From Dysgonamonadaceae bacterium (GTDB taxonomy: Bacteria; Bacteroidota; Bacteroidia; Bacteroidales; Azobacteroidaceae): a stretch of DNA of 33,689 nucleotides. Of this stretch, positions 4,711 through 26,580 are shown piece by piece (position 1 is the first letter of the stretch; every line of letters begins with the position of its first letter). The notes under the pieces were generated by a model. It did no database searches. It was not told the DNA's origin and was given only the letters and a program-made list of their open reading frames with translations. Location: positions 1-33,689 of the forward strand of contig JAIRNV010000135.1 of assembly GCA_031257875.1 (NCBI GenBank), in the 5' to 3' direction. The translations under genes and the position numbers were made by a program.

Positions 4711-4781
4711 GCTAATGATTAGTGATTAGTGATTAATGATTATTAATGACTCATGTTACGCAAATTACACAAATCTGTTAA

Positions 4782-4880
4782 TTTGCAGATCTGCAAAACC
4801 TTCCCGGCGTCTTTTTGGAGCTTTTGTCAGCTGACAAAACCTTCCTGACGTCTTTTTGGAGCTTGTGATCGCGATCAAAA
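4782..4880. repeat. Array of three unrelated palindromes at exact 41-bp period
   Basis: TTTGCAGATCTGCAAA (4782-4797), TTTTGTCAGCTGACAAAA (4822-4839), TGATCGCGATCA (4866-4877), separated by conserved ccttcc(c/t)g(g/a)cgtctttttggagc. Confidence 0.9.
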
Positions 4881-4892
4881 CCCTTTGTTCGG

Positions 4893-4986
4893 ACGAGGCT
4901 GTGCCTCGTTCGCCGTATCCTTACAGGTTGTACCTGTCTGACAGGCAGAGCCTGTCGGGATAGCCGGCGCGAGGTTGGAACCTCGC
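4893..4986. repeat. Hairpin cluster (four short stem-loops)
   Basis: ACGAGGC-tgt-GCCTCGT, ACAGGT-tgt-ACCTGT, GACAGGC-aga-GCCTGTC, GCGAGGTT-gg-AACCTCGC. Confidence 0.85.
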
Positions 4987-5001
4987 ACCAACGGGGGGAT
5001 T

Positions 5002-5092
5002 GTTTTGAACGCGAATTGCGCAAATTACGCACATTTTACATTTGAATTTTATCAAATAAATTTGTGTAATTCGCGTAATTCGCGTTCAAAAC
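5002..5092. repeat. Long imperfect inverted repeat (gttttgaacgcgaatt.../...aattcgcgttcaaaac)
   Basis: Arms 5002-5036 and 5058-5092; word recurs near 12480-12505. Confidence 0.85.
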
Positions 5093-12405: not shown

Positions 12406-12464
12406 TTGCAACCGCGGTTGCAAACGTCCTGACGGCTTTTGGGGACTTTCGTACCGGTACGAAA
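12406..12464. repeat. Two 18-bp perfect palindromes, 41 bp centre-to-centre
   Basis: TTGCAACCGCGGTTGCAA (12406-12423), TTTCGTACCGGTACGAAA (12447-12464); spacer like that of 4782-4880. Confidence 0.9.
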
Positions 12465-12550
12465 ACGTCTAAGGTTCTGTTTTGAACGCGAATTACGCGA
12501 ATTTATTTGGTAACGTGAAATAAAAAAGATATAGCAATTTTAAGTTTCCC

Positions 12551-12677
12551 CTCCGTGTCTTTCCGTGAAACTCCCTCCGTGAAACGCTGTGTTTAATAAT
12601 TTTTACAACACGGAGTTTCACGGAGGGGCACGGAGGAAAAGTTTAAAACTGCAATATCTTGTTTATATCGCATTACT
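12551..12677. repeat. Dispersed hairpin element copy A (ctccgtgtctttccgtgaaa.../...ggggcacggagg...ctgcaatatcttgttta)
   Basis: Inverted repeat; same element at 20578-20718. Confidence 0.9.
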
Positions 12678-12867
12678 TAATGCGATATACTATAATATAT
12701 ATCAACATATTATGAATGGATTTCTCTATTGGTGTCCATTAGAAATTTAGTACCCAACCGGTGTGGATATTCCTAATGGACATTTGGGGTTTATTAACTT
12801 TTAAAAAACAAAAATCAGTCCGCTTGCCGGCGGGGGTATCGCTCAATGGTTTGAAAAACAAAAAAAG

Positions 12868-20577: not shown

Positions 20578-20718
20578 CTCCGTGTCCCTCCGTGAAATCC
20601 ACTCCGTGAAACGCTGTATTTAATAATTTTTATAACACGGAGTTTCACGGAGTGGATTTCACGGAGGGACACGGAGGAAAAGATTAAAACTGCAATATCT
20701 TGTTTATTTCGCATTACT
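20578..20718. repeat. Dispersed hairpin element copy B
   Basis: Same orientation and near-identical to 12551-12677; partial copy around 26693-26745. Confidence 0.9.
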
Positions 20719-20833
20719 AAAAGTGAAAATAAAACTCAAAAGTGGATTATCAAGGAATTGACAACAATGAAAAAAGTATTTTATCTTTTCTGAAGAAATT
20801 GTTATCAGTCCGCTTGCCGGCGGGAGTTCACAT

Positions 20834-26136: not shown

Positions 26137-26183
26137 AACCTTTTCTTTTCTCATGCCTGAATAATTTTTCTATCAACAATAGT

Positions 26184-26309
26184 CTGACCATGTCGGATTT
26201 TCTCCCGACGGTGTTGGCAAATGATCTGACCATGTCGGATTTTTTCCCGACGATGTTGGCAAAAGATCTGACCGTGTCGGATTTTTTCCCGACGGCGTTG
26301 GCGAAAAAT
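26184..26309. repeat. Three tandem 42-bp repeats
   Basis: ctgacc(a/g)tgtcggatttt(c/t)tcccgacg(g/a)(t/c)gttggc(a/g)aa... x3; 14-aa unit in either strand's ORF. Confidence 0.95.
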
Positions 26310-26580
26310 CTGCGCTGCGCATACCGGATTTTTATATACCGGCGCTTATTTTTCATGTTTTAGTAATAAAAAATAAATCACATGTAACGACTGGCAATTG
26401 CGGCCAAACTTGAAGGTTACGGGGGGGGGTATTCGTTTTGAAGTTCCTTTCTATCTGAATGATTTAATCGGTAATATTGTTTTAATAAAATATTCCTGCC
26501 TGCCAACCGGAATTGTAAAACGGCAGAAGGCGCAGGAAGGCCGGCATAACCAATGCTGTTACGCAGGCACAACCAACACT

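Follow-up and report, generated by a model that had tools for sequence, protein, structure and literature searches.

Intergenic hairpin arrays with exchanged dyads and a genome-wide 41/42-bp pitch in a Dysgonamonadaceae bacterium

What kind of element sets palindromes of unrelated sequence at an exact 41-bp step between nearly constant spacers? The question is raised by locus 1, located in a 33,689-nt stretch of DNA from a Dysgonamonadaceae bacterium (contig JAIRNV010000135.1; hereafter, the window). Direct reading of the window agreed to the base with the three palindromes, their centres and the spacers described in the original prediction (Table 1). The leader of locus 1 is not the one that recurs among other arrays in the genome; this leader and the first dyad class (G) are common with one further array, L064.

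Table 1. Coordinates of locus 1 and of the other repeat features in the window
Feature	Position	Strand	Remarks
Leader-like flank CATGTTACGCAAATTACACAAATCTGTTA	4751-4780	+	Common to the L064 array, there CATGTTACGCAAATTACAGAACTTGTTA
Palindrome 1 TTTGCAGATCTGCAAA	4782-4797, centre 4789.5		Inside 18-bp slot 4781-4798; letters read directly
Dyad 1, class G (ATTTGCAGATCTGCAAAA)	4781-4798	+	
Conserved 23-bp spacer CCTTCCCGGCGTCTTTTTGGAGC	4799-4821	+	
Palindrome 2 TTTTGTCAGCTGACAAAA	4822-4839, centre 4830.5		Fills 18-bp slot 4822-4839; letters read directly
Dyad 2, class D (TTTTGTCAGCTGACAAAA)	4822-4839	+	
Conserved 23-bp spacer CCTTCCTGACGTCTTTTTGGAGC	4840-4862	+	
Palindrome 3 TGATCGCGATCA	4866-4877, centre 4871.5		Inside 18-bp slot 4863-4880; letters read directly
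Dyad 3, class C (TTGTGATCGCGATCAAAA)	4863-4880	+	
Tail CCCTTTGTTCGG	4881-4892	+	Similar to CCGTTTGTTGACC, tail of L052, L054 and L059
Second copy of the locus-1 element	12406-12464	+	Dyad B 12406-12423, spacer 12424-12446, dyad A 12447-12464
Tail ACGTCTAAGGTTCTGTTTTGAACGCG of the second copy	12465-12490	+	Common to many arrays
42-bp hairpin array, 3 units	26183-26312	+	Sequence unrelated to locus 1, same pitch phenomenon
42-bp repeat with GATTTAAATC dyads, contig end	33616-33689	+	Same family as L139 11598-11862

Positions 4893-4986 of the window hold four short palindromes with different stems and similar centres (ACGAGGC-TGT-GCCTCGT, ACAGGT-TGT-ACCTGT, GACAGGC-AGA-GCCTGTC and GCGAGGTT-GG-AACCTCGC); they may be REPs of a REP-associated tyrosine transposase (RAYT), since similar palindromes flank the RAYT gene in L217. 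The long inverted repeat at 5001-5092 (TGTTTTGAACGCG...CGCGTTCAAAACA) is an element found after many 41-bp arrays. Dispersed CTCCGTG/CACGGAG inverted repeats lie at 12551-12685 and 20578-20726 and form a chain with arrays elsewhere (L063). The three-unit hairpin array has a four-unit counterpart at L095 14631-14812; the 42-bp unit of both folds into a long stem-loop.

The 14-base core of the spacer occurs twice in the window and again on further contigs of the same genome, a draft of 2.83 Mb in 234 contigs that is 84.7% complete. In the genome search and catalogue of units proposed in the original prediction, a degenerate spacer pattern gave 113 copies (55 + 58), against 1 and 0 for reversed-pattern controls, and about 23 arrays were delineated, with at least 113 spacer copies and 143 dyad slots, a few of which, at array edges, are not dyads. 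The unit is composed of an 18-bp dyad and a 23-bp spacer and is repeated at 41 bp with rare exceptions; arrays comprise 2 to 23 dyads, or 1 to 23 with the solo form, a single class A dyad with the recurrent tail TCTAAGGCTCTGTTTTGAACG (L133). The arrays are dispersed in intergenic gaps, some of them inside operon-like gene pairs. An assembly artefact is unlikely, because units differ by single changes and variants are common to different contigs. A coding role was rejected, as 41 is not divisible by 3 and the open frames over arrays are short or consist largely of the array itself. Read by eye only, the genes beside the arrays resemble ordinary cellular ones; none is common to the array neighbourhoods, and array orientation is not consistent with respect to them. 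Spacer arrays were found in none of 99 relatives, named GTDB genomes or viral contigs; the named GTDB genomes gave 12 single matches, several of them terminator-like or in open frames and none in an array. Apart from one tRNA, no curated Rfam model matched, and no covariation was seen by eye between the ends of the spacer hairpin CGTCCTGACG.

The arrays are polar. A leader, GTAAACAGTTTGACTGCGCTCCCG, and a tail, TCTAAGGCTCTGTTTTGAACG, recur among them; several arrays open with GTAAACAGTTTGACTGCGCTCCCGTTTTGGGGGAC and then a class A dyad, and all ten tails of the TCTAAGGCTCTGTTTTGAACG type follow a class A dyad. The end of the leader, TTTTGGGGGAC, is similar to that of the spacer, and the first bases of the tail, ACGTC, to the spacer's first bases, as would be expected if the unit came from duplication of a segment around one dyad.

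The 143 slots contain 59 distinct 18-mers in about eight unrelated classes, which are mixed within arrays: A (TTTCGTAC(CG/CA/TA)GTACGAAA-like, 56 slots), B (TTGCAACCGCGGTTGCAA, 18 slots), C (CGTYGATCGCGATCAAAA, 19 slots), D (TTGTGTCANNTGACAAAA, 22 slots), E (TTGCGGAGTGCGGCGAAA and relatives, 12 slots), F (TTTCGACACGCGGCAAAA), G (as at dyad 1 of locus 1) and H (CGTAGTACTGATACTACG and relatives). Since the same classes recur, the variable part amounts to a small shared repertoire. The distinct dyads form on average 6.22 Watson-Crick pairs of 9, compared with a mean of 4.16 (sd 0.17, maximum 4.80 of 2000 shuffles) in an arm-shuffled control and 2.07-2.81 when the arms are slid by 1-3 bases. At least two Watson-Crick types are found at every pair position, and compensatory changes are seen in TTTC-GTA/TAC-GAAA, TTGC-GTA/TAC-GCAA and CGTA-GTA/TAC-TACG. 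Related sequences inflate these pairing statistics, and the stronger fact lies at the level of the classes, several of which have no sequence relation to one another and yet are all self-complementary. Pairing is imperfect in classes E and F, and some of the classes have decayed. Variation in classes A and D falls in the central 2-4 bases, with a minor fraction of 0.24 and 0.23, respectively, in the four central bases against 0.015 and 0.029 in the stem; changes in classes B, C and E are not concentrated in the centre.

The same design, a constant spacer with exchanged dyads, is present in a second family whose sequence is unrelated to locus 1. Its spacer, CTCCYGCARCCTGCGTGGG, matches 18 times in the genome and 0 times in controls, and separates 22-bp dyads (ACTTTCCCTACACAGGGAAAGT, ACTTGCCCTGCACAGGGCAAGT, ACTTGCACCACTCGACGCAAGT and ACTTGCAGTACTCGCCGCAAGT) that include TTTCCCT/AGGGAAA and TTGCCCT/AGGGCAA, together with half-changed intermediates, e.g., ACTTTCCCTGCACAGGGCAAGT. 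The excess of pairing, the compensatory changes and this unrelated family bear out the claim that symmetry persists while the dyad sequence varies, and the loss of self-complementarity in other copies, which was to refute that claim, did not occur over the 59 distinct dyads.

Comparison with relatives shows gaps of different length at two sites. The copA-cusC gap, which in the genome under study contains locus 1, the four short variable-stem palindromes and the long inverted repeat, measures 375 bp there. In the two relatives whose CopA is closest, G021 (83%) and G014 (79%), it is nearly empty, with 31 and 15 bp, respectively; both are too diverged here to place the insertion point, and no terminal repeat was recognised by eye. 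The livH-livM gap, which carries a 41-bp array, is about 393 bp long; G003 has <25 bp at this place, and G018 about 90 bp. In G023 the livH-livM gap (L242 1265-1382) holds an independent, unrelated 23-bp palindromic array built on GATTCGGAGCCGGCTACGAATC.

A pitch of 41/42 bp recurs throughout the genome, irrespective of sequence. Tandem Repeats Finder (non-overlapping arrays, period 26-102), applied to 764 kb of the genome (27%), placed 31 of 40 tandem arrays at 41/42 bp, 14 with period 41 and 17 with period 42; one further array has a period of 83, i.e., 41 + 42. For 32 related species, with about 3-120 kb sampled from each and 836 kb in all, the corresponding count was 0 of 13 (Fisher exact 6e-7), and without the F1 arrays and the contigs chosen for them the comparison becomes about 24/29 against 0/13 (3e-7); the numerators were taken by hand from the array lists. 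Further loci of relatives added one 42-bp array, in G022. One family can account for several dispersed arrays, so that the number of families, approximately 15-18 and largely unrelated, is the fairer count. A single ancestor of all families was rejected: most of 210 pairs are dissimilar, with F1b-F1c and F4a-F4b clearly similar and a few others weakly so. All 32 arrays, including that of period 83, are intergenic. A significant stem-loop (p<0.1 against dinucleotide shuffles) was predicted for 13 of 21 consensus units (62%), compared with 11% of flanking 41-mers (n=108) and 9% of arrays in relatives; the combined p is 4e-8, a few of the 21 units being related to each other. Several families carry a hairpin at both the start and the end of the array. 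About a third of the families are without a significant stem, and the hairpin may therefore not be required for the 41/42-bp step.

The element is a real, non-coding, hairpin-based intergenic minisatellite and mosaic, best read as MITE-like, and outside the known families by the features tested. We give roughly even odds to the view that locus 1 represents, in three units, a non-coding intergenic element that is dispersed and species-specific, grows by duplication and is mixed by recombination. Arrays would gain and lose segments of about four helical turns, each with one hairpin, by replication slippage or unequal recombination, dyads would pass between arrays by recombination via the common spacers, and stems might stay self-complementary because the duplicating machinery acts on the folded hairpin, as single-stranded DNA or a cruciform. 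A hairpin-recognising nickase (a Y1/HUH transposase) and fork-stalling with template-switch are candidate setters of the step. More tentatively, and with the balance against it, we suggest that an undescribed process duplicates segments of about four turns around intergenic hairpins of any sequence, yielding 41/42-bp arrays whose stems are kept self-complementary.

Other readings explain parts of this picture. The dyads could be operators of a dimeric protein, brought to one helix face by the 41-bp pitch and serving in the nucleoid or in segregation; an exact pitch near 4 x 10.25 bp, its occurrence in unrelated families and the likeness of 18-bp dyads with a variable centre (classes A and D) to dimer sites all suit this reading. 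We consider it unlikely, given that dyads A-D and G were never found as single sites in the 764 kb sampled, outside the arrays and the solo form of the same element, and that many proteins would be needed for at least eight unrelated dyads here and for the 22- to 40-bp dyads of other families. Transcribed arrays whose hairpins stabilise, terminate or process mRNA are less likely still: the conserved stem and variable loop of classes A and D, the position between co-directional genes (e.g., copA-cusC and livH-livM) and the stems of most families are consistent with such a role, but the inconsistent array orientation and the lack of an Rfam match are not, G-U and A-C departures are about equally frequent in the dyad list by inspection, and the innermost positions, whose pairing a loop could do without, also pair above expectation.

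Mobilisation of REP-type elements by the genome's RAYT or IS200-like Y1 transposases ranks lower again in our estimation. The genome has five Y1-transposase matches, including one RAYT above the cut-off, and its arrays provide hairpins in many intergenic copies with CGTC near the dyad; however, the RAYT gene lies at C154, on another contig, and is flanked by different palindromes (GCAAGGCTGGAGCCTTGC and GGCGTAGCGTGGACGCTACGCC), GTAG or GTGG is absent from the foot, and CGTC, which reads TGTC or CTTC in certain units, stands on the 3' side of the dyad at a distance of 1 nt, whereas the described GTAG and CGTC tags stand 5' at the hairpin foot (PMC3733652, PMC6006769). By the features tested the element differs from ordinary REPs, as originally proposed, and a linked RAYT or nuclease, for which a test had been suggested, was not found beside the arrays. 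Of 41 genomes of the genus, 4 (including G023) have a RAYT above the cut-off, too few for counts to reveal an association with arrays; another of the four, G007, has no 41/42 array in the 40 kb sampled. Canonical SbcD was not found in the genome under study, but 31 of 40 congeners lack it as well, some of which have no arrays, so that SbcCD loss does not explain the difference. Reverse transcriptases were set aside as well, as no array was found beside the four RVT_1 matches, which lie on two contigs (two are neighbouring portions of a single gene interrupted by a stop, and one is below the cut-off). A CRISPR-like or other guide-array system with palindromic exchangeable units, to which constant and variable parts at a regular pitch and a recurrent leader might point, is very improbable, for the variable parts are few, repeated and self-complementary and the sites dispersed, with no common neighbouring gene. 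Classes are indeed mixed within arrays, but the earlier likening to an array of exchangeable units, in the sense of a CRISPR- or integron-like system, is not supported: the repertoire is small, the approximately 23 sites are scattered, their neighbourhoods have no gene in common and the RAYT is remote.

With one fixed pitch across arrays of unrelated sequence, the origin of tandem repeats is set apart from what their sequence is; the pitch points to an unexplained duplication process, or a structural constraint, that acts on folded DNA and not on sequence. Should the pitch be due to an enzyme of set reach, a molecular cause could be traced for bacterial minisatellites and for REP-like mosaics. 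The arrays are also a natural example of symmetry preserved under free sequence, suited to testing folded single-stranded DNA as a unit of selection or mutation.

The nearest known kinds of array element are BrickBuilt, the Neisserial intergenic mosaic elements with dRS3 (NIME) and REP. With REP/BIME the arrays share short intergenic hairpins whose stems vary from one family to the next and which have a constant motif beside them; they differ in their head-to-tail tandem order at 41 bp and, as noted above, in the foot of the hairpin and the genes beside it. NIME likewise combines small inverted-repeat units with other repeats in intergenic mosaic arrays of hundreds of copies, but there the ends of the 20-bp dRS3 (ATTCCC N8 GGGAAT) stay the same and the variation lies in the RS parts of 30-160 bp (PMC3898611), whereas the present arrays vary in the dyad and have a constant spacer and a fixed pitch. 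The dRS3 pattern is fitted by 0 of the 59 different dyads. BrickBuilt, a MITE/minisatellite of Porphyromonas gingivalis built of 23-nt units without spacers and of one repeat sequence (PMC4596501), is similar in being a dispersed tandem repeat of a Bacteroidales genome with a leader, a tail and predicted stem-loops; in place of its spacerless unit, the arrays described here have units of 41/42 bp, with exchange of the dyads while the spacer stays constant, and a single pitch is common to many unrelated families.
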